From positions 7,918,001-7,982,000 of the forward strand of contig NZ_CP069396.1 in assembly GCF_016887565.1 (NCBI RefSeq): DNA of 64,000 bases. The letters are read 5' to 3'. The DNA is from Archangium violaceum. Lineage in GTDB: Bacteria; Myxococcota; Myxococcia; Myxococcales; Myxococcaceae. A model generated the notes under the pieces. It did no database searches, was not told the DNA's origin, and saw nothing but the letters and a program-made list of their open reading frames with translations. The position numbers were made by a program, and so were the translations under genes. Below are positions 8,870-56,850 of this stretch, one piece after another (the first letter of the stretch is position 1; every line of letters starts with the position of its first letter).

Positions 8870-10474
8870 TTACTTGAACTGCCAGACCCGGACGTAGTTG
8901 ATCTCGTACGAGTTGCCCTCGCCGGTCGGCGTGGAGCTGTCAGGGGAACCGCTCGCGCTGCCGAACCACAGGTCCAGGAGCACGTACATCGGCCTGTTGT
9001 AGTAGCCGGCGGTATCCCAGTACTTCGGCCCGAGCTGCTGACCGTCGAAGTAGAAGGTGATTCCAGACGGCTCCCACTTCACGGCATACGTATGGAAGCC
9101 GGCGGACAGGTCGATGCCGTTCTGGTAGGGCGAGAAGTTCCTCAGCGTCGTCGAGTACGGCTTCTCGTGGTACGTGTAATCCGCGTTGGCCTTGTGCAGC
9201 GTGAGGCCGAAGTTGGTCGGGTGCAGGTTGCCATCGCCCCAGCCACTGTCGGGACCACCGCCCGGGTAGGCTTCCATGATGTCGATCTCGGGGCGATCGT
9301 CCCCCGGGTGGGCGTAGAGCCAGAACGCGGGCCAGACTCCCCTGCCGATCGGCAACTTCGCCTGCATCTCGAAGTAGCCGTACGTCTGGGAGAACTTGCC
9401 GTCGGTGTCGATGGTGCGGTCGACGAACCCGGCGGCCGGCCAGATCTTCAGCGAACCGTTGCTGACCTTGTAGTTGATGACCGGATCGGAGCTCTTGTAC
9501 CAGATGTGGTCGTTCCACTTGCTGGTGCTGAAGCCGCTGTCGAACTCGTCGGAGAAGGTCAGCTGGTACGCGTTCGCGTCCTGCCCGAGTGGTCCACCGG
9601 AGTTCTGCGAGGAGCCCGTGACGGTGAGCGTTCCGACGATGTAGCGGAGCTCGCCATCGGCGGTGACGCCACTGCCCGGCGTCAACGGGACGCGGTCGTT
9701 CGGCGAGGCCATGGGATAGAGGCCCACGCGGATCGTGTACGTCCCCGCGGCGAGGCTCGAGGGAAGGGTCTTGCTGACATTGTAGGCAATGGCGCCGCTC
9801 CACACGGAGGTGGCGACGGGCGGCAGGTGGTCGGCGTTGAGCGTGGAGTGCTGCACGCCGTTCTGATCGACGAAGTGGACGAAGACGTAATAGTCCGCGG
9901 CCATCGGCACGGCGTTGAACCGCATCGCCAGCGTCACGTTCTGCCCCGGCTGCGCGGACAGGCTCGGATTTCCGAGCTGAAGCACCTGGGTGGTGGACGG
10001 CTGCTGGCCGACGGTGAGCGTTCCGACGGCGTAGCGGAGTTGATCGTCGACGGTGACGCCAGTCCCCATCGTCAACGGCACGCGGTTCCACGGCGAGTGG
10101 TTCTGGTAGAGCCCGACCCGGATTGTATAGGTGCCCAGCGGGAGCGACGCCGGAATCGACACGGTGCGGTTGTAGGCGACGGAGCCGCTCCACTTGGAGG
10201 TACCGACGGGCGGCAGGTGGTCGGCGTTGAGCTCGGAGCGGTGCACGCCGTTCTGGTCGATGAAGTGGACGAAGACGGCGTAGTCCTCAGCCAGCGGTAC
10301 GGCGTTGAACCGCATCGCCAGCGTCACGCTCTGCCCCGGCTGCGCGGACAGGCTCGGCGTTCCGAGCCGAAGCACCGTCGACTGGGCGGCTCTCGCCTCC
10401 GGGCTCAGCGCCAGGAGCAGGAACGCGAGCAGCACCGTGGATATGGCCTCAAGACGTAACCTGTGTGGTCTCAT
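8870..10474 (-). CDS. Secreted glycoside hydrolase family 16 with two N-terminal repeats
   Basis: A 534-residue extracellular glycanase. The signal peptide runs to about residue 29 (ending EARA). Two homologous beta domains follow at about 31-150 and 158-280, each with SLSAQPGQ, AMRFNAVP, VFVHF-DQNGV, LNADHLPPV and GTYTIRVGLY. The GH16 domain fills about 290-534 and has the catalytic EIDIME motif: nucleophile Glu396 and acid/base Glu401. Substrates of the family are beta-1,3- or beta-1,3-1,4-glucans, agar and related galactans; laminarinase-like activity on fungal wall glucan is plausible for a predator but inferred. ATG at 10474 has GGGAGA eight bases upstream. The upstream region is AT-rich and shared with a divergent lipoprotein gene. 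Confidence 0.9.
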   Translation of the reverse strand: MRPHRLRLEAISTVLLAFLLLALSPEARAAQSTVLRLGTPSLSAQPGQSVTLAMRFNAVPLAEDYAVFVHFIDQNGVHRSELNADHLPPVGTSKWSGSVAYNRTVSIPASLPLGTYTIRVGLYQNHSPWNRVPLTMGTGVTVDDQLRYAVGTLTVGQQPSTTQVLQLGNPSLSAQPGQNVTLAMRFNAVPMAADYYVFVHFVDQNGVQHSTLNADHLPPVATSVWSGAIAYNVSKTLPSSLAAGTYTIRVGLYPMASPNDRVPLTPGSGVTADGELRYIVGTLTVTGSSQNSGGPLGQDANAYQLTFSDEFDSGFSTSKWNDHIWYKSSDPVINYKVSNGSLKIWPAAGFVDRTIDTDGKFSQTYGYFEMQAKLPIGRGVWPAFWLYAHPGDDRPEIDIMEAYPGGGPDSGWGDGNLHPTNFGLTLHKANADYTYHEKPYSTTLRNFSPYQNGIDLSAGFHTYAVKWEPSGITFYFDGQQLGPKYWDTAGYYNRPMYVLLDLWFGSASGSPDSSTPTGEGNSYEINYVRVWQFK

Positions 10475-10604
10475 GCGATCTCCCTCGTGTGGATGCAAAT
10501 CAGTTCGATGTTATTACTGAATTACCAATTTAACCGTCAGTAAAGCTCTTTCAGCTAAACTGCGATTGCTGAGGCAACTCGCATGCGGAGAAGAGGGAAG
10601 ACTC
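10475..10604. promoter_or_regulatory. AT-rich divergent promoter region with inverted repeat
   Basis: This spacer between the leftward GH16 gene and the rightward lipoprotein gene is markedly richer in A and T than the rest of the window, especially 10495-10560. It contains an inverted repeat TTACTG (10514-10519) and CAGTAA (10538-10543). Promoters for both genes are expected here, and the repeat is a candidate operator. Confidence 0.5.
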
Positions 10605-11081
10605 ATGCACGGCTGGAATGCACCCGCCACACGAGGAATCCTGCTGTCCCTGGCCCTCTTGGGCGCAGTCCTGCATGCGTGTGTAGGCGGCCATATCCCG
10701 CCTTCCACGTTCCAGTTCACCAACATCGTGCCCCTTGTCGGGACAGAAAGAAGTGGATGGAAGGTCGCCCAGGTGATCGTCCTGATGGGCAGGATCTCCC
10801 GCCTCTTTCCTGAAGCCGCGACCTGTGAAGTCGAGGTGGGCGTTCCGGAAAGAAACGTGCACGGGCTCGTAACGGACGAGTTCGCACAAGTGGCGGCCGC
10901 CAAGGCGGCGGACGAGACCGCACGCATCGTCCTGCGGGAGCAGCAGCCAACCGCCCTGGCCTGTAATCAGTTCAGAAAACACATGCAGAGCATCTTGGGA
11001 GACCGGAACTTTGGCTCCATCCCTGGTGCCAGGGTCACCGGATTCCTGGAGGTGGGCGTCCCCAGGACGACGTTTCCGTGA
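10605..11081 (+). CDS. Hypothetical lipoprotein
   Basis: A 158-residue protein of no recognised family. ATG at 10605 is chosen because AAGAGGGAAG lies just upstream and because it opens a lipoprotein signal: a hydrophobic helix ILLSLALLGAV ends in the lipobox-like LHAC at about residue 26. The mature part has two further Cys (in AATCEVEVG and ALACNQFRK), which could form a disulfide, and a repeated EVGVP segment near residues 73 and 150. It is followed 48 bp later by another unknown gene in the same direction; the two are likely cotranscribed. No function is claimed. Confidence 0.6.
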   Translation: MHGWNAPATRGILLSLALLGAVLHACVGGHIPPSTFQFTNIVPLVGTERSGWKVAQVIVLMGRISRLFPEAATCEVEVGVPERNVHGLVTDEFAQVAAAKAADETARIVLREQQPTALACNQFRKHMQSILGDRNFGSIPGARVTGFLEVGVPRTTFP

Positions 11082-11129
11082 GAACGGAGGACTCCTCGTG
11101 CCTTCGAGACAGTATGAAACCGCCCCCAT

Positions 11130-11714
11130 ATGAAACCGGAATTGGAGGCCGGCGCGCTCGTCCGGCTCGTCCACAGTTACTACCCGGCGGGTATCGAGAA
11201 GGAAGATCCCCGCTACACGGACTCGGAAGAAGCCCAACGTCTCAGGACGCTGCTCCAGGCCCATGCGGCGGGGACACCGGCCTGGAAGAGCTTCGTTCAG
11301 CGACTGCGGGGAGAATTCCCGGCCTGCTCCATCTGGGACACGACCGTGCCCCGGCATGATCCCTGTTACAGCTGCCGCGTGTCCCAACCGGGATTCGTGT
11401 CAGGCGACCCTATCTGTGAAGACGTCGTCTGCCTGCTGAGTCAGCTCGCACCGGTGTACGCCCTCTACGCGTCCCATACGGAGAAGACGACCCCTCCCGA
11501 GCGCAGGGGCTGGTTCGGCTTTCCGCCGTTTCCCCCCGAGTACCAGGCGCACGAAGCGAAGCTCGCCGGACTCATCGAGTCCACTTTCGGCTTCACCCGC
11601 CTGTCCAACGACATTCTCTTCACCCCCGTGCCGGATCTCGTGCCACGAACGGCCAACTTCGGGTTGGGTGAAGCGCAGCTCATCGACTGCCTCTTCACCA
11701 CGCACCGTTGGTAG
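11130..11714 (+). CDS. Hypothetical protein with Cys pairs
   Basis: A 194-residue soluble protein that I do not recognise. It has no signal peptide or membrane segment. The centre contains a cluster of Cys (EFPACSIW, DPCYSCRVS, DPICEDVVC) that could bind a metal, followed by an aromatic/proline patch WFGFPPFPPEY. The C-terminal third is ordinary alpha/beta in composition. It follows the lipoprotein gene after 48 bp, so the pair may be functionally linked (for example cargo and membrane partner), which is only a guess from context. ATG at 11130 follows a weak ribosome site. Confidence 0.5.
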   Translation: MKPELEAGALVRLVHSYYPAGIEKEDPRYTDSEEAQRLRTLLQAHAAGTPAWKSFVQRLRGEFPACSIWDTTVPRHDPCYSCRVSQPGFVSGDPICEDVVCLLSQLAPVYALYASHTEKTTPPERRGWFGFPPFPPEYQAHEAKLAGLIESTFGFTRLSNDILFTPVPDLVPRTANFGLGEAQLIDCLFTTHRW

Positions 11715-11769
11715 GCACGATGTCCGTCTTCATCCGAGGGATGCGCACGGCCCGGAACATCCTCCGGGC

Positions 11770-14019
11770 TCACGTGTCGGGGTCGTCCTTCTCCCGCGTG
11801 GGCAGGAGCAGGGTGAAGGTGGTGCCAACGCCCGGCTCGCTGCGCACCCGCAGGTCTCCGTCCATCTTCTGGATGAGGGAGAGGCTGATGGACAGCCCGA
11901 GCCCGGAGCCAGAGCCCACCGCCTTGGTGGTGAAGAACGGATCGAAGATGCGCGGCAGCACCTCGGGAGGAATCCCGTGGCCGGTGTCCGAGATGTCGAT
12001 CCGCACCCACTCCTCTTCCCTCGAGGTGCGAACTCCGAGGACATGCCGCCGCGACGCCTCGGGCCGCATCGCCTGGGCGGCGTTGACGACCAGGTTGAGG
12101 AAGACCTGGCTGAGCCGTCCCTCGCTGGCGAGCACCGGAGGCAGCCCCTCCTCGTACTCCTTGCGCACCTCCGCCGCGTGCTTCAGCGCGTTGTGCGCCA
12201 TGCGCAGCACGAAGTCGAGGCAGGCGTGCACGTCCACGGGCGCCAGGTCCTCGCCCGCCGTATGCGAGAAGAAGCGCATGTCTCGCACGATGTCCCGGAT
12301 GCGCCGGCCTCCGTCCAGACTCTCGGCGATGACGTCCTTCGCCTCGGAGAGCATCTCCACCAGCCGCGGCGGAAGCGCTCCCGGTGCCGACAGATCCTTC
12401 TCCAGCTCGTCCCGCCACTCCTGCAGGAAGGAGAGGTTGGAGAGCACATAGGAGGTCGGGTTGTTGATCTCGTGGGCGATGCCCGCCGCCAGCGCGCCCA
12501 TCGAGGCGAGCCGATCGTTCTGGAGCGTCTGCTGCTCGAGCCGCCGCTTCTCGGTGAGATCATGCCCGACGACGAGCAGGAGCCGGTCCGCGCCAGCCAC
12601 CTGCAGCGAGGCGGAGATGTCGAAGGCCACGCGCCCCGCGGCGGCCGAGCGCAGTCCCTGCTCCGACAGACGGACCGTGCCGCGGACACGCAGATCCGAC
12701 AGCGCCCGGCGCAGGGCCTCGCGCTCGTTCTCCGGGGCGAGCAGCTCGAAGAAGGTGCCGACCAGCTGCTCCCGCGACAGCCCCAGCAGCCGCTCCGCCA
12801 CCGGGTTGACCTCCTTCACCCGTCCCTTGTCGTCCAACAGGAAGACCGCGTCACCCGAGTACTCCATGAGCTGGCGGGTGCGGGCCTGTGCCTCCTGCAC
12901 CTGCGCCTCCAGGTGGGCGGCGTGCTGCTCGACGAGCCTCTTGGCTTCCTGGAGCACGTTCTCCTGGCGCCGGCGCTCGCTCAAGTCGATGTAGATGCCG
13001 AGCACCCCCCTCACCGTCCCATCCGGGTTCTTCAGCGGCACCTTGCTCGTCATCACCCACGACTCCCGCCCGTCCGGGGTCCGGATGGTCTCCTCGTAGC
13101 CGAGATGGGGGACGCCCGACTCCATCACCTCCCGGTCACCCCGGCGGAAGAGGTCGGCGAGCTCTCGCGTCAGGTAGGGCATCTCCAGGTCCGTCCTCCC
13201 GATGACCTCTTCCGGTGAGGACACGCCCATGTCGCGGGCGAACTGGTGATTGCACCCCAGGAAGACGCTGTCGCGGTCCTTCCAGAACACCGAGTGGGGA
13301 ATGTGGGCGAGGACGCTGGAGATGAGCGTCTGCTGATCCTGCATCTGGCGCTCCATGCGCTGGCGCTCGCGCATCTCCATCTGCAGGTACGAGTTGAGCG
13401 AGCGCATCCGCTCCTGGGACTGCTCCAGCTCGGCATTGCGCTCCTGAGCCACCCGGAGCTGGGTGCGCAGGTGGATCTGCAGCTCGACCTGGCGCTTGAG
13501 CCCGAGCAGGCCACGGCGCTGGGCCTCGCTCAAGGTCCGCGGGCGCCGGTCGATGACGCAGAGGGTACCGAGCGCATGGCCCTCCTCCGTCAGGATGGCA
13601 GCACCGGCATAGAAGCGGATGAAGGGCTCGCCCTGGACGAGCGGGCTGAAGGCGAAGCGCTCATCGGCCCTCGCGTCCTCGACGAGGAAGACGCCCTCGC
13701 GCTCGATGGCATGGGTGCAGAAGGAGATGCCGCGCTCCGTCTCGCTCACCCCCGACAGCCCGACGTTCGCCTTGAACCACTGGCGAGACCTGTCCACCAG
13801 ACTCACGAGCGCGATGGGGGTACCACACAGCTCCGCGGCGAGCCGCACGATGTCATCGAAGTCGGGCTCGGGGGGTGTATCGAGGAGGCTGGAGCGCTCG
13901 AGCGCCAGCAGCCGTTGCGCTTCATCTCTCTTCGGGGCAGGCGGTGGCATGGAGGTTTCGTGAGGGACTGTTGCAGCATAGAAGGAAGCTCCCCCACAAA
14001 TGGTTCGGCCATGAACCAT
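11770..14019 (-). CDS. GAF-PAS-PAS hybrid-free sensor histidine kinase
   Basis: A 749-residue cytoplasmic sensor kinase. In order: a GAF domain at about 50-190 (DDIVRLAAELCGTPIALVSLVD ... GTLCVID), a coiled-coil-like linker rich in Glu/Arg/Gln, PAS domain 1 at about 255-375 (ISSVLAHIPHSVFWKDRD ... IYIDLSERRR), PAS domain 2 at about 405-515, a HisKA domain with the phosphoacceptor in AAGIAHEINNPTSY, and an HATPase domain with DTGHGIPPEVL and the G2 box GSGSGLGLSI. No membrane segment or receiver is present, and no response regulator gene is adjacent, so it is an orphan. ATG at 14019 is preferred because GAGGAAG stands five bases upstream; 14037 and 13950 are alternatives. Confidence 0.85.
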   Translation of the reverse strand: MVHGRTICGGASFYAATVPHETSMPPPAPKRDEAQRLLALERSSLLDTPPEPDFDDIVRLAAELCGTPIALVSLVDRSRQWFKANVGLSGVSETERGISFCTHAIEREGVFLVEDARADERFAFSPLVQGEPFIRFYAGAAILTEEGHALGTLCVIDRRPRTLSEAQRRGLLGLKRQVELQIHLRTQLRVAQERNAELEQSQERMRSLNSYLQMEMRERQRMERQMQDQQTLISSVLAHIPHSVFWKDRDSVFLGCNHQFARDMGVSSPEEVIGRTDLEMPYLTRELADLFRRGDREVMESGVPHLGYEETIRTPDGRESWVMTSKVPLKNPDGTVRGVLGIYIDLSERRRQENVLQEAKRLVEQHAAHLEAQVQEAQARTRQLMEYSGDAVFLLDDKGRVKEVNPVAERLLGLSREQLVGTFFELLAPENEREALRRALSDLRVRGTVRLSEQGLRSAAAGRVAFDISASLQVAGADRLLLVVGHDLTEKRRLEQQTLQNDRLASMGALAAGIAHEINNPTSYVLSNLSFLQEWRDELEKDLSAPGALPPRLVEMLSEAKDVIAESLDGGRRIRDIVRDMRFFSHTAGEDLAPVDVHACLDFVLRMAHNALKHAAEVRKEYEEGLPPVLASEGRLSQVFLNLVVNAAQAMRPEASRRHVLGVRTSREEEWVRIDISDTGHGIPPEVLPRIFDPFFTTKAVGSGSGLGLSISLSLIQKMDGDLRVRSEPGVGTTFTLLLPTREKDDPDT

Positions 14020-48708: not shown

Positions 48709-49674
48709 ATGCAGCACAGGGTGCGGATGATGGCCGTGGGGTGGGGACTGGTTTTTCTGGGGAGCGTGGGGGGTACGGCGCCTGCTCTCGCGAACCCCGA
48801 TTCGAGTGGGAACGGCCCGACGCCCGCCCTGGTGGTGGACGGCGGAGCCGCTTCCCGCTCGGATAACGAGGAGCCCTTCCTGGGCGTCGTCATTCCCAAT
48901 GACACCGTGGAGGTGAGCTCCCGCTTCGACTCGCGGCTGGAGCAGGTGGAGGTCGAGGTGGGCCAGTCCGTGCGCGAGGGGCAGGTGCTCGCGCGGCTGG
49001 ACACGCGCTCGCTCCAGCAGGAGCTGGCCGCGGCCCGGGCCACCGTCCAGGGCTCGCGCGCCGAGGAGCACGCCGCCGCCCTCGCCCTGTCCGAGGCCCG
49101 CGCCAGGAAGCGCCGCTATTTCACCCCGCGCTCGCTGCAACTGGGCGTCTATTCGAAGGAAGAGTTGGACAAGGTCCGCTACGAGGAGAGCACCGCCGAC
49201 GCCCGCTTGCAGGCCGCCCGGGCCCAGACGCTCCAGCGCCAGGCCCAGCTGACCGAGCTGAAGCAGAACCTCGACGACGCCACGCTCGTGGCGCCCTTCG
49301 ATGGCGTGGTGGCCGCCCGGCTCGTCGGTCCCGGCACGCGACTGGCGGCGGGACAGCCCGTGCTCCGGCTGCTGGGCAGCGGCGAGTGGAAGGTGCGCTT
49401 CGCCGTCCCCGAGGACGAGGCGCGTGGGCTCCAGCCGGGCGCGTCCGTGGAGCTGAAGGTGCTCCAGCGCGGCCTCACGCTGATGGGAGCCGTGGAGAGC
49501 ATCGCGCCCGAGGTGGACGCCGCGGCCCGCCTGGTCTTCGCCACCGCCACCTTCACCCAGCCACCGCCGCCCGAGGTCTCCGCGGGCCAGGTCGTCCACG
49601 TCCGCTCGGGCCCCACGCAGCGGCTGGGCGGGAGGGGCACGGGCGGCTCGGCGCCAACGGGAGCAACGCATTGA
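48709..49674 (+). CDS. Membrane-fusion adaptor of the lanthipeptide exporter (1)
   Basis: A 321-residue periplasmic adaptor of HlyD/RND type. Signal peptide MMAVGWGLVFLGSVGGTAPALA; a biotinyl-lipoyl-like hairpin in two halves (VIPNDTVEVSSRFDSRLEQVEVEVGQSVREGQVLARLD and LVAPFDGVVAARLVGPGTRLAAGQPVLRLL) around a coiled coil (residues about 95-180), then a beta-barrel ending. It has no C-terminal domain typical of full RND adaptors. It is the first gene of the operon; the next start is 2 bp after its stop. It would link the C39 ABC exporter to the outer membrane. No outer-membrane channel is encoded nearby. Confidence 0.82.
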   Translation: MQHRVRMMAVGWGLVFLGSVGGTAPALANPDSSGNGPTPALVVDGGAASRSDNEEPFLGVVIPNDTVEVSSRFDSRLEQVEVEVGQSVREGQVLARLDTRSLQQELAAARATVQGSRAEEHAAALALSEARARKRRYFTPRSLQLGVYSKEELDKVRYEESTADARLQAARAQTLQRQAQLTELKQNLDDATLVAPFDGVVAARLVGPGTRLAAGQPVLRLLGSGEWKVRFAVPEDEARGLQPGASVELKVLQRGLTLMGAVESIAPEVDAAARLVFATATFTQPPPPEVSAGQVVHVRSGPTQRLGGRGTGGSAPTGATH

Positions 49675-49676
49675 CC

Positions 49677-50613
49677 ATGGAAGCAACCCAACGCACCCGC
49701 ATCTTCCGCGAGGAAGCCCTGCGTCACCACGAGGGCTCCCAGGACGAGGGGGACGTCCTCCGAATCTCTCCGAAGTGGACCCAGTGGACCTACTGGGTGC
49801 TGATCGCCCTGATCGTCGCCGCGGCCCTGTATTCGCTGCTCGGCACCATCCCCGAGTACGCCTCTGGCCCCGCCATGGTGAAGGTCGAGGGCCGGAGCGA
49901 GCTGACGGTCGAGGCACCGGGAATCGTCGCCTCGGTGGACGTGCGGCCCGGGCAGCGGGTGGAGGCGGGGCAGCCGCTGGTGAGCTTCCTGTCGCGGGAG
50001 GAGACATCCACGCTGGAGCGCATCGAGCGCGAGTTCGAGCTGCAGCTCGTCCGGGTGCTTCAGAACCCCGCGGACGAGTCGGCGCGCCAGGCGCTCACCT
50101 CACTGCGAGCCGAGAGGGAGCTGGCCCAGGCACGGCAGCAGGCCCGCACGCTGCGGGCCCCGCAGGCCGGGGTCGTGAGCACGCTGAAGGTGCGCAAGGG
50201 CCAGTACGTCAACCCGGGCGAGAGCGTGGTGTCCGTCACGGGTGACGAGGTGCACGTGACGCTGGTGGCGCTGCTGCCCGGCGGCTACCGGCCGAGGCTC
50301 GAGCCGGGCAAGCCGCTGCGCGTGGAGCTCAACGGCTTCAGCCACGAGTACCAGACGTTCACCATCGAGTCCGTGGGAGATCAGGTGGTCGGGCCCAACG
50401 AGGTGCGCCGCTACCTGGGGGCGGACAGTGGGGATGCCGTCCAGCTGTCGGGCCCCATGGTGGTGGTGAAGGCGAAGGTTCCCGCGACCACGTTCACCAT
50501 CAAGGGAAAGACGTTCAACTACTTCGACGGGATGCTGGCCCAGGCCGACGCCCGAGTGCGCACCGAGCGCATCCTCGTCACGCTGATTCCGGGTCTGAAG
50601 GGAGCATTGGGAC

Positions 50614-50624
<11 letters not shown>
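49677..50624 (+). CDS. Membrane-fusion adaptor of the lanthipeptide exporter (2)
   Basis: A 315-residue HlyD-type adaptor, anchored by one membrane helix (WTYWVLIALIVAAALYSLL, residues about 37-56) with a cytosolic N-terminus rather than a signal peptide. The lipoyl-like half-motifs are VEAPGIVASVDVRPGQRVEAGQPLVSFL and LRAPQAGVVSTLKVRKGQYVNPGESVVSV around a short helical hairpin. This resembles the adaptor of NHLM-type bacteriocin export systems. It overlaps the exporter gene by 11 bp. Together with adaptor 1 it suggests a double-adaptor export complex. Confidence 0.82.
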
Positions 50625-52842
<2,218 letters not shown>

Positions 52843-52886
52843 AACGTCCTCCGCGTGACATCGGATGACAGCTGACTCCTTCTGGT

Positions 52887-52932: not shown

Positions 52933-53193
52933 ATGAAGAAGGAACTGATCATCCGTGCATGGAAGGACCCGGCGTTCCGCGCGAGCCTCTCCGCCGAGGA
53001 GCGCGCTTCTCTTCCCGAGAGTCCCTCCGGGAAGTCGATGACCGAGCTCGATGAGTCCGAGCTGGATGGGATCTCCGGCGGTGGAAGACCGAGTCCCAAG
53101 TACTCGGTCGACACGTTCCGTTGTCCCGCCCCCACGTTCTTCTGCCCCCCGCCCAAGACCATCAACTCCTGCGGAATCGTCGCCTGCATCTAG
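52933..53193 (+). CDS. lanA1: Class II lanthipeptide precursor A1
   Basis: An 86-residue precursor. The leader starts MKKELIIRAWKDPAF and ends in ISGG at residues 47-50, the pattern of mersacidin/lichenicidin-type (TIGR03898-like) leaders with a double-glycine site for the C39 protease. The 36-residue core holds four Cys (64, 71, 80, 85) and six Ser/Thr (Ser54, Ser58, Thr61, Thr68, Thr76, Ser79), giving candidate rings Thr61-Cys64, Thr68-Cys71 and one or two rings in TINSCGIVACI. Two TFxC units and several Pro (CPAPT, CPPPK) are notable. AGGAGAAG precedes the ATG. Sequence is unlike lantibiotics I recall. Confidence 0.9.
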   Translation: MKKELIIRAWKDPAFRASLSAEERASLPESPSGKSMTELDESELDGISGGGRPSPKYSVDTFRCPAPTFFCPPPKTINSCGIVACI

Positions 53194-53219
53194 GCGCCCG
53201 AGCGCGGTGAGCCATCACC

Positions 53220-53262
53220 GGAACGCGGCGCCCCGATACACACCAGCCGGGCGCCGCGTTCC
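53220..53262 (+). terminator. Strong hairpin between the precursor genes
   Basis: Perfect 14-bp arms (GGAACGCGGCGCCC at 53220-53233, complement at 53249-53262) with a 15-base loop, 27 bp after the A1 stop. It lacks a long T-run, so it may be a partial terminator or stabiliser that sets the A1:A2:LanM ratio. Confidence 0.75.
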
Positions 53263-53346
53263 GCTTGTCACAGACCTCCCCCACACGCTCCACCCGGATG
53301 CCGGCGCTCGAAGACCGGCTCCCCCCCAACTCCGGAGTCACAAGAC

Positions 53347-53586
53347 ATGAAGAAGGAATTGATCATCCGCGCCTGGAAGGACCCGGCGTTCCGAGCCAGC
53401 CTCTCCGCCGAGGAGCGCGCCACCCTTCCCGAGAGCCCTTCCGGCAAGGCGATGACCGAGCTCGACGAGGGCGAGCTGCTCGCCATCATCGGTGGACGTT
53501 CCGCGGAGATGCAGCCCGCCACGGGGTGTGACGGTCCCGAGCGGCAGACGTGCGGAATCATCAACTGCTCCCTCCTCGACAGCTGA
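53347..53586 (+). CDS. lanA2: Class II lanthipeptide precursor A2
   Basis: A 79-residue precursor. Residues 1-45 are almost identical to A1 (leader differs at about six positions), ending IIGG at 47-50. The 29-residue core (after Gly50) has three Cys (61, 69, 74) and five Ser/Thr (Ser52, Thr59, Thr68, Ser75, Ser79). It is unrelated to the A1 core except for the shared C-G-I-(V/I)-x-C ending (TCGIINC here, SCGIVAC in A1). Candidate rings are Thr59-Cys61 and one around TCGIINC. GGAGTC lies upstream of the ATG. Confidence 0.9.
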   Translation: MKKELIIRAWKDPAFRASLSAEERATLPESPSGKAMTELDEGELLAIIGGRSAEMQPATGCDGPERQTCGIINCSLLDS

Positions 53587-53622
53587 CCGCGCGGCCCCCG
53601 GACATCGGCACAGGTGATACCC

Positions 53623-56600
53623 ATGCAAGTCATTGCTCCTGTCTTTCCCTGGAAGAAGGCGACATTCCTTCACGAGCGGGCCACCGCGAAGGGAGGTGCC
53701 CCCTCCGAGGGAAACGACTCGGCTCGCGAGGAGGCCGAGCGCCGCGCGGATGCCTGGCGCCAGCTCATGTCGGGAGACGACGCGACCCTCGACGAGCGGC
53801 TCAGCAGCGTGGGGCTCGACCGTCAGGCGTTCCTCCAGCTCCTCGCCCACTCGGGGGGCCAGGACGACGAGCCCGAGGACAGTGGCTCATGGGTCTTCCT
53901 CATCCAGGAGGTGATCGAGCAACGGCACGCCGGAGAGGCCCTGCCCACCTCGCTCCAGGCGCCCTCCAGCCCGGGACAGCCCGGGCTGTCGTTCTCGGGA
54001 CTGCTCCACCCGTTCCTGCGGATCGCCACCGCGAGGCTGCGGACGAGCCTGGCCGCGCTCCAGGCCCGCCACGGTCTGGAGCGCCCCATCCTGGCGCCCG
54101 AGGCCGAGGCCGCGCTGCTCGAGGGACTCGCGCGGCGGCTCCAGTTCCTGGCCACCCGGACCCTCATCCTCGAGCTCAACGTGGCCCGGATGCTCGAGCA
54201 ACTGCCCGGCGACTCGCCCCAGGAGCGCTTCCATTACTTCTCGACGCGGCACCTGGGGGAGCCGCGGGTCCTGGTGGCGCTGCTGGAGGAATACCCGGTC
54301 CTGGCCCGGCTCCTGGCCACCAGCACCGAGCGGTGGCTCGACGTGAGCCTGGAGCTCCTCCAGCGCCTCGTCGCGGACCATGAGTTGCTCGGCCAGACCT
54401 TCCTGGGGGGCCAGGACATCGGACTGCCCACCGGACTCCAGTCCGGCATCTCCGACCTGCACCGCGAGGGCCGGAGCGTGCTCCTGCTCCAGTTCAGCTC
54501 CGGTCTGAAGCTCGTCTACAAGCCGAAGTCGCTCGCGGTGGACATCCGCTTCCAGCAGCTCCTCCAGTGGATGAACGCGAAGGGCGTGCGCCATGCGCAC
54601 CGGGTGCTCACCGTGCTGGACCGTGGCTCCTACGGCTGGGTCGAGTACGTGGAGACCGCGAGCTGTGACTCGCGCGAGGCCCTCCAGCGCTTCTACTGGC
54701 GGCAGGGCAGCTCGCTGGCCCTGCTCCACACGCTGGCCGCCGTGGACTTCCACCTGGAGAACCTCATCGCCGCTGGCGAGCACCCCGTGCTCGTGGACCT
54801 GGAGGCGCTCTTCCACCAGCGGTCCTCCCAGGAGACAGGGGACTCGGCCCACCAACGTGCCTGGGCCGCGCTCGACCGTTCCATCATCTCCGTCGGCATG
54901 CTGCCCATGCTCATCTTCGGCCGGGGGGGACGCGCGGGCGTCGACATGAGCGGGTTGGGGGGCGAGGCGGGCCAGCTGTCACCCCAGGCGGTGCCCATGG
55001 TGGAGGACGCGCTCCACGACACCATGCGCGTGGTCCGCCGCCAGGGCCGCACGTCCGGCTCGAGCAACCGGCCCCAGCTCCAGGGCCAGCCGGCGGACGC
55101 CGCCGAGTACACCGAGGACATCGTCCAGGGCTTCGAGGAGACGTACCGGCTCCTCATGCGTCACCGCGAGGAGCTCGGGCCCCGGCTCCAGGACTTCGCC
55201 GACGTGGAGGTCCGCCACATCGTGCGCGCCACCCAGCGCTACGCGCTCCTCCTGCAGGAGAGCGTCCACCCCGACTTCCTGCGCGATGGCCTCGAGCGGG
55301 ACAAGGTGCTGGACAACCTCTGGGCCGAGGCCACCCTGTGGCCCTCGCTGCGGCGGCTCGTCCCCTACGAGCACGCGGACCTGCGCCTGGGCGACATCCC
55401 CATGTTCACCACGCGGCCCGGCCAGCGCCACCTGTGGAGCAGCACCGGCGAGTGCATCCGCGACTACTTCGCGCATGACAGTCTGGGCGAGGTGCGGGAG
55501 CGGCTCACGCGGTTGGATGAGAGGGATTGTGCCTGGCAGGTGTCGCTCATCCGCAAGTCGATGGTCTCCCTCGACAAGGGCCGGGGTGCCGCGCCCGTCA
55601 TCACCCGGACCGGACAGCGACCTCCCCCCGCGCCCGCCTCGCGCGAGGAGTGCCTCGCCGCCGCCATCTCCATCGCGGAGGACCTCGCGGCCAAGGCCAT
55701 CCGGGGACGCACGGACGTGTCCTGGATTGGCATGAACCTGGAGGACCTGGGGCGGTGGCGTTGGAGCCTCGCGCCTCTCGGCACGGACGTGTACGAGGGC
55801 GTCGGCGGGCTCGCCCTGTTCCTCGCGTACCTCGCCCGGGAGACCGGACGCGCGGACTTCGAGCAGCTCGCCCACGCGGCCCTGGAGCCCGTACGGGACT
55901 CCTGGCGCAACCCCGACCCGAGCGACGCGGGCGTGGGCGCCTTCGTCGGCCGGACCTCCGCCGCGTACGTGCTCGGACACCTGGCCGCCCTCTGGAACCA
56001 GCCGGAACTGCTGGACGAGGTGCGCGAGGGACTCCCGGCGCTGGAGGCGCTCATCGACACCGACACGCGGATCGATCTGCTCAGCGGCTCCGCCGGGTGC
56101 GCGCTCGTCCTGCTCGGACTGCACGCCCGGACCGGGGACTCGCGCTTCCTGGAGGCCGCCAGGCGATGCGGGGAGCGGCTCGCCGTCATGGCCCAGCCCA
56201 TGCCGGAGGGAGGCCTGGGCTGGAAGGGCGCGGCGGGAGAGCGGCCCCTGTCGGGCTTCTCCCACGGTGCGGCGGGCATCGCGTACGCGCTCCTGGAGCT
56301 GGCCGCCGCCACCGGCGACACGCGCTACCGCGAGCTCGCGCAGAAGGGGCTCGCCTACGAGCGCGCCCTCTTCGTCCCCGAGCGCGCCAACTGGCGCGAT
56401 CTGCGCGAGCCCGAGAAAGGCGCGGAGGGCATCGCCACCGGCTTCATGGTGTCGTGGTGCCATGGTGCCCCGGGCATCGCGCTCGGGAGGCTGTGCTCGC
56501 TGCGGCACCAGGATGACGTCCAGACACGCGCGGAGCTCGCCACGGCGCTCGACACGACCCTGCGCGAGGGCTTCGGCGGCAACCACTGCCTGTGTCACGG

Positions 56601-56850
56601 AGACATGGGCAACCTGGAGCCGCTGTACCTGGCGGGCGAGCGGCTCGGCGAGCCGCGATGGATCCGCGCCGCCCTGGAGCGCGCGGCCCACGTCATCCAC
56701 ACCGGACGCGAGCGCGGCTGGCTCTGCGGGCTGCCCCGGGGCACGGAGACCCCGGGGCTGCTGATGGGACTGGCCGGCATCGGCTATGGCCTGCTGCGGC
56801 TGGCGGCCCCGGAGCGCGTGCCGTCGGTGCTCTCCCTGGCGATGCCCTGA
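53623..56850 (+). CDS. lanM: Class II lanthipeptide synthetase LanM
   Basis: A 1075-residue bifunctional enzyme that phosphorylates and dehydrates Ser/Thr in the precursors and then forms thioether rings. The N-terminal 650 residues are the kinase-like dehydratase (DUF4135): LLQFSSGLKLVYKPKS, VDFHLENLIAAG, VLVDLEALFHQ. The C-terminal 380 residues are the LanC-like cyclase with zinc ligands Cys946 (SWCHGAPG), Cys991 and His992 (CLCHGDMGN). ATG at 53623 is chosen because AGGTGA precedes it; GTG 53614 is another start. Last gene of the operon, ending 1 bp before a convergent gene. Length is normal for LanM. Confidence 0.95.
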   Translation: MQVIAPVFPWKKATFLHERATAKGGAPSEGNDSAREEAERRADAWRQLMSGDDATLDERLSSVGLDRQAFLQLLAHSGGQDDEPEDSGSWVFLIQEVIEQRHAGEALPTSLQAPSSPGQPGLSFSGLLHPFLRIATARLRTSLAALQARHGLERPILAPEAEAALLEGLARRLQFLATRTLILELNVARMLEQLPGDSPQERFHYFSTRHLGEPRVLVALLEEYPVLARLLATSTERWLDVSLELLQRLVADHELLGQTFLGGQDIGLPTGLQSGISDLHREGRSVLLLQFSSGLKLVYKPKSLAVDIRFQQLLQWMNAKGVRHAHRVLTVLDRGSYGWVEYVETASCDSREALQRFYWRQGSSLALLHTLAAVDFHLENLIAAGEHPVLVDLEALFHQRSSQETGDSAHQRAWAALDRSIISVGMLPMLIFGRGGRAGVDMSGLGGEAGQLSPQAVPMVEDALHDTMRVVRRQGRTSGSSNRPQLQGQPADAAEYTEDIVQGFEETYRLLMRHREELGPRLQDFADVEVRHIVRATQRYALLLQESVHPDFLRDGLERDKVLDNLWAEATLWPSLRRLVPYEHADLRLGDIPMFTTRPGQRHLWSSTGECIRDYFAHDSLGEVRERLTRLDERDCAWQVSLIRKSMVSLDKGRGAAPVITRTGQRPPPAPASREECLAAAISIAEDLAAKAIRGRTDVSWIGMNLEDLGRWRWSLAPLGTDVYEGVGGLALFLAYLARETGRADFEQLAHAALEPVRDSWRNPDPSDAGVGAFVGRTSAAYVLGHLAALWNQPELLDEVREGLPALEALIDTDTRIDLLSGSAGCALVLLGLHARTGDSRFLEAARRCGERLAVMAQPMPEGGLGWKGAAGERPLSGFSHGAAGIAYALLELAAATGDTRYRELAQKGLAYERALFVPERANWRDLREPEKGAEGIATGFMVSWCHGAPGIALGRLCSLRHQDDVQTRAELATALDTTLREGFGGNHCLCHGDMGNLEPLYLAGERLGEPRWIRAALERAAHVIHTGRERGWLCGLPRGTETPGLLMGLAGIGYGLLRLAAPERVPSVLSLAMP

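Follow-up and report, generated by a model that had tools for sequence, protein, structure and literature searches.

A tandem pair of class II lanthipeptide precursors in Archangium violaceum as probable members of a dispersed, trans-acting combinatorial system

Two neighbouring open reading frames of Archangium violaceum, LanA1 and LanA2, encode peptides with a common leader and unlike cores, and lie beside a single gene for a class II lanthipeptide synthetase (LanM). Do they form the two halves of a two-component lantibiotic, or do they belong to a combinatorial set? The locus lies in a stretch of 64,000 nucleotides (contig NZ_CP069396.1, positions 7,918,001 to 7,982,000 of the forward strand; the window), and a sequence-only reading of it had left both options standing. 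Comparison of the genomes of the family indicates that the locus is probably part of a dispersed, trans-acting combinatorial system, not a two-component pair, and we consider it likely that LanA1 and LanA2, the two precursors at this locus, belong to a family of class II precursors spread over the chromosome and served by one LanM and one exporter.

The genes and promoter-like elements of the locus are as follows.

48832-49674, forward strand: HlyD-type adaptor 1 (Pfam HlyD_D23 and HlyD_3; start codon from a codon-usage model)
49677-50624, forward strand: HlyD-type adaptor 2 (Pfam HlyD_3), conserved in relatives
50614-52842, forward strand: LanT-like exporter, 742 amino acids (Pfam Peptidase_C39, ABC_membrane and ABC_tran)
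52855-52884, forward strand: promoter-like element of LanA1, GTGACA-N14-ACTCCTTCTG
52933-53193, forward strand: LanA1 precursor, leader 1-50, core GRPSPKYSVDTFRCPAPTFFCPPPKTINSCGIVACI (TIGR03898, 71.8 bits)
53267-53296, forward strand: promoter-like element of LanA2, GTCACA-N14-GCTCCACCCG
53347-53586, forward strand: LanA2 precursor, leader 1-50, core RSAEMQPATGCDGPERQTCGIINCSLLDS (TIGR03898, 68.8 bits)
53623-56850, forward strand: LanM class II lanthipeptide synthetase, 1075 amino acids (TIGR03897, 1020 bits; DUF4135 and LANC_like)

This order, with two HlyD adaptors, an exporter carrying a C39 peptidase, LanA1, LanA2 and LanM, is that of a class II lanthipeptide locus, and LanM combines the dehydratase and LanC-like domains of a class II enzyme. 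Its best PDB match is LicM2 (6st5), with which its zinc-site motifs, the WCHG and LCHG of a cyclase, are aligned; a GTG at 53614 is a possible alternative start. The exporter is matched over its full length by the bacteriocin transporter 4ry2, and its C39 peptidase presumably cuts after Gly-Gly. The position of HlyD-type adaptor 1 directly before adaptor 2 and the exporter is kept in relatives, and LanA1 has orthologs at L112:16894-17145 and L115:7527-7787. A WecG/TagA-type glycosyltransferase gene lies 3' of LanM on the opposite strand. No RNA element in the window reached the Rfam gathering scores.

The description of two reading frames with a common leader and unlike cores was borne out at this place and on this strand. 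The leaders are identical at 44 of 50 residues and differ at residues 26, 35, 42, 45, 46 and 48; the `about six' differences previously counted in residues 1-45 are four in that range and six in residues 1-50. The cores are 28% identical, and unlike-type cores within genomes have a mean identity of 27%, compared with 26% for shuffled cores. The conserved C-G-I-x-x-C ending is common to both cores beyond chance: none of 20,000 paired shuffles of the LanA1 and LanA2 cores held CGI..C in both, and a pattern of this form in any letters was common to both shuffled cores in 0.8% of 20,000 paired shuffles. Both precursors score far above the cut-off of 23.5 bits of TIGR03898, the mersacidin/lichenicidin family, and both join a Gly-Gly leader to a core with Ser/Thr and Cys, as do 57 of the 61 precursors considered below overall. 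Because the leaders differ by 15 synonymous changes in 35 sites and by nine non-synonymous changes in 115, the leader pair dates, on these substitution counts, from an old duplication and is under constraint. The 15 synonymous differences in 35 sites exceed those of the G000-G005 ortholog pairs (6-7 of 35-36), which led us to reject recent gene conversion between the leaders. It is plausible, as had been suggested, that the leader is read by LanM and by the protease.

The pair is not alone in its genome. The A. violaceum genome (one contig, 13.2 Mb) holds nine TIGR03898 leader matches, namely the two of the window, a third at 4.35 Mb next to a different LanM, and six remote ones at 0.23, 3.98, 4.27, 6.67, 7.32 and 8.95 Mb, where remote denotes a precursor with no LanM in the fetched stretch around it, as far as the contigs reach. 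Searches by tblastn of 19-20 kb around each of the six found no LanM, LanT exporter or HlyD gene, and Pfam searches of 19 of the 24 nearest neighbours and one further gene found no RiPP enzyme. The scanned neighbours belong to unrelated Pfam families or to none, the one clear match among them being two alpha-1,3-glucanase-like proteins, and a common companion gene was not found among them. The remote precursor at 3.98 Mb carries a LanA2-type core, TGCTDGRLTCGIINC. The same genome holds a second LanM cluster (L045:9464-9670 and 9771-13052) with a different leader class and the core ITGEPTSAYCTPCPPKYCY, which is conserved in G005. Decayed leader remains in G000 and G001 (L229 and L230) point to the birth and death of precursor copies.

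The family census covered 96 genomes, in which at most the best 65 leader candidates and the best eight LanM candidates per genome, and at most the best 150 matches of the leader HMM scan, were scored, so that members may have been missed. TIGR03898-type leaders occur in at least 36 of the 96 genomes. Relatives of the window LanM at 65-100% identity were found in 11 genomes among the matches listed, five of the genus of the window and six of two other genera. Among the matches listed, remote precursors occur in ten of these 11 genomes, compared with one of the remaining 25 genomes that carry precursors (Fisher p = 4.6e-7, or 1.1e-5 when the contig fragments of G068 and G070 count as remote). 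The sole exception of the 11 is G004, a draft of 430 contigs with a window-type LanM but no remote match, and the only one of the 25 is G003; a seemingly remote precursor in G110 adjoins a LanM remnant. In a tree of 35 LanMs, the 11 window-type enzymes form one clade with support of 100/99. The five LanMs of the sister clade are about 54% identical to the window LanM and, among the matches listed, have precursors only beside them. WCHG and LCHG are present in ten of the 11 clade rows in an alignment of 37 LanM rows, two of which are wrong ORFs, the eleventh clade row being one of these. Scores of the leader HMM are bimodal, with members mostly at 85 bits or more and leaders of other LanMs at 63 bits or less; a small number of members in G000, G001 and G084, incomplete or decayed, score below 60 bits. 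Exactly one LanM exceeds the cut-off in each of G001, G004 and G082, and G001 has at least 12 leader matches, eight of them remote. One LanM with many precursors, several of them unlinked, is an organization like that of the prochlorosins.

An exporter ortholog of at least 77% identity is present in all 12 genomes searched. Linkage to LanM is confined to the five genomes of the window's genus; in G018 and G082-G086 the exporter lies on another contig than LanM or approximately 3.6 Mb away from it. A LanA2-type precursor lies beside the exporter in G082 and G083, and no precursor was found in 16 kb around the exporter in G018, G084, G085 and G086. Exporter homologs without modification enzymes have been described in Cystobacter fuscus (PMC3951391, in the excerpted text), and these may be unlinked exporters of the dispersed-precursor kind. 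In G003, a site with the gene order of the window's flanks on both sides (L174, G003:C1:11179000-11196000) keeps the exporter and lacks LanA1, LanA2 and LanM, and the glycosyltransferase gene directly follows the exporter.

The cores were analysed in 61 precursors drawn from 12 genomes. Of these, 24 lie near LanM; the other 37, two of which adjoin an exporter, do not. Three G004/G086 precursors are included, and precursors that belong to other LanM systems, alternative starts and matches with E > 1e-7 are left out. Within genomes, the leaders are 62% identical and the cores 28%, compared with 25% for shuffled cores (202 pairs). Leader duplication followed by core diversification gains support from this set, and the suggested small combinatorial set proves larger than guessed. 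Pooled over nine of 11 ortholog pairs (L048-L124 and G005 LanA1 being left out), dN/dS comes to 0.22 in the leaders and 0.50 in the cores: the leaders are held, and the cores change faster yet are still constrained. The recurring core types are TGC..TCGI (the LanA2 type), the LanA1 type ending in SCGIVAC, DxCPS, CCF and CICSxW, and 20 cores are unclassified. Cys and Ser/Thr are kept in 57 of the 61 cores; the other four lack Cys, and therefore not all members can be lanthipeptides. Two LanM-adjacent precursors, L134:9566-9838 (G018) and L139:8697-8963 (G085), keep the leader and have a conserved Cys-free core, GPDQDL..F.P..TPYIRV, in which no thioether rings are therefore possible; L136 is a damaged relative of these two, and Cys-free cores were also noted in L125 and L126. 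Some family members are relics, namely the leader fragment L229 and the pair L230.

Most precursors share an upstream element, GTCACA followed after mostly 13-15 bases by ACTCCWTCYG, about 44-62 bases before the ATG. A score of at least 13 is reached by 40 of the 61 precursors (18 of 24 near LanM and 22 of 37 remote), the other 21 lying below this cut-off, and by three of 142 other genes at the A. violaceum loci and ten of 1220 shuffles; these counts overstate the independent evidence, as the consensus was derived from the same upstream regions and the rows include orthologs. The score is not reached by any of 11 precursors that belong to other LanM systems, nor by the HlyD, LanT and LanM genes of the window. 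In the A. violaceum genome the strict element occurs 15 times, three of them before precursors, versus four times for the reversed pattern. The promoter-like pattern also stands upstream of conserved non-precursor genes (L210, L224, L226, L228, L218 and L223), one of which encodes a small protein that contains Cys, looks secreted and has no Pfam family. Because some sites precede such genes, the regulator, which may be an alternative sigma factor, probably acts on other genes as well. ECF41 was considered as this factor and rejected: its promoter is TGTCACA-n16-CGTC in the excerpted text of PMC3426412, of which the -35 half TGTCACA is equal to that found here, but the second half, ACTCCWTC versus CGTC, does not fit.

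The element also bears on how members arise. Same-type precursors at unlike places (L047 with L105, L114 and L116; L049 with L137) show a bounded likeness in blastn comparison of their flanks, from approximately 63-81 bases before the ATG to at most 15 bases from the stop codon; tblastx synteny was uninformative in this high-GC DNA. The bounded likeness fits the copying of a promoter-plus-ORF unit, and selection on element and ORF after older rearrangements would give an equal pattern.

It is very unlikely that LanA1 and LanA2 constitute a synergistic two-component lantibiotic modified by one LanM, with the remote genes as unrelated leftovers. The tandem arrangement next to a single LanM and the joining of similar leaders to dissimilar cores speak for such a pair, and roseocin-type two-component lantibiotics likewise combine a conserved leader with different cores (PMC10027976, in the excerpted text), but the LanA1 and LanA2 types lack the one-to-one co-occurrence of such systems. 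The TGC..TCGI core is present in all 11 genomes with a window-type LanM, whereas the LanA1-type core is intact in three (A. violaceum itself, G001 and G002) and was not found in G004; G018 has a shorter likeness of SCGIVAC. The G005 ortholog of LanA1 (L132:8660-8887) has an in-frame TAG just ahead of the SCGIVAC end, so that the case named earlier as refuting diversification, one core kept with a pseudogene of the other, is seen in one genome but not always. Moreover, CTxTxEC, the motif of alpha peptides and of mersacidin-like lipid II binders, is present in none of the 61 cores, the LanA2-type gene of G082 and G083 lies by the exporter some 3.6 Mb from LanM, and ortholog pairs that include remote genes are constrained, the remote genes carrying the same element. 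The two-component option of the sequence-only reading thus finds no support.

A second possibility, which we hold to be unlikely, is that only the local pair is live, the remote genes being remnants of defunct clusters or encoding substrates of other enzymes. Relics do exist (the L229 fragment, the L230 pair, the Cys-free L125 and L126 and the interrupted LanA1 of G005), and G003 keeps one remote precursor (L116) without a window-type LanM. This reading sits poorly with the low leader dN/dS of pairs that include remote precursors, with the element kept in 22 of the 37 remote genes, with the Cys and Ser/Thr kept in nearly all cores and with the lack of another RiPP enzyme among the scanned neighbours. 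It is possible but doubtful that the element is a general alternative-sigma promoter, uninformative on a common pathway, as the conserved non-precursor genes downstream of the strict pattern and the ECF41-like first half (PMC3426412, in the excerpted text) would suggest; the same score is far rarer among other genes than among precursors, and absent from precursors of other LanM systems.

The reading that we prefer, a dispersed family served by one LanM and one exporter, builds on features visible in the genomes themselves: leader, LanM, exporter, dispersal, upstream element and association with a single LanM clade. Local and remote genes, with their common promoter-like element and leader of about 50 residues, would be co-expressed. 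One LanM, encoded beside one to four precursors, would recognize the leader and modify the peptides in trans, dehydrating Ser/Thr and forming thioether rings in cores of very different sequence. Common processing would fall to the C39 exporter and its pair of HlyD adaptors, which would cleave after Gly-Gly and secrete the products; these may act on competitors or prey. New members would arise as copies of the short promoter-plus-ORF unit, the core then diversifying, while others decay. More tentatively, and with slightly less than even confidence, we propose a co-regulated genome-wide library whose members have spread as units of promoter element plus precursor ORF, about 340 bases long, in keeping with the bounded likeness of same-type precursors, each strain having its own mix served by one synthetase and exporter even megabases apart. 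Genome mining that looks within clusters finds the two precursors of this locus and overlooks the rest. A layout like that of the prochlorosins, but with a canonical LanM and another leader family, would mean that promiscuous lanthipeptide synthesis in trans is not confined to picocyanobacteria, and would provide a new substrate-tolerant enzyme for peptide engineering; the common element makes the timing of, and reason for, switching of the whole set testable.

ProcM, the synthetase of the prochlorosins, has a three-Cys zinc site, which is not present in the window LanM, with its canonical WCHG and LCHG. Prochlorosins and synechococsins (ProcM, SyncM) resemble the dispersed set in layout, with one LanM, many scattered precursors, a conserved leader, varied cores and unrelated neighbours (PMC10783134, in the excerpted text). 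They differ in that the leader here is of the TIGR03898 mersacidin/lichenicidin type, with no Nif11 model at E up to 1, and in that the hosts are myxobacteria, not cyanobacteria, and a common upstream element is present. With mersacidin and lichenicidin the system shares a leader family over the curated cut-off, a LanM and a C39 exporter, but not CTxTxEC, and its precursors are dispersed. No report of dispersed lanthipeptide precursors in myxobacteria was found in the open-access literature, subscription papers being mostly outside this coverage; new here are the layout in this group, its association with a single canonical LanM clade, an exporter unlinked from LanM, and the shared upstream element.

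A published product of such a locus may already be LanII-2B of Archangium violaceum, a class II product whose core is freed by a C39 protease and which has three Cys, four Ser/Thr, one DL-Lan, one DL-MeLan, one free Cys and weak activity (PMC9576775, in the excerpted text, where dispersal is not mentioned). Its composition fits the TGC..TCGI core of G004, KAALEPSTGCTDGVPTCGIVPFCDLEVA (three Cys, four Ser/Thr), and equally the L045 core of the second LanM cluster (three Cys, four Ser/Thr). In the sister LanM clade, a precursor of G078 (L089:4842-5060) ends in NSCGYICTLTTECGC and holds CTxTxEC, a motif missing from the dispersed set; the NSCG at its start is similar to the NSCGI of LanA1.
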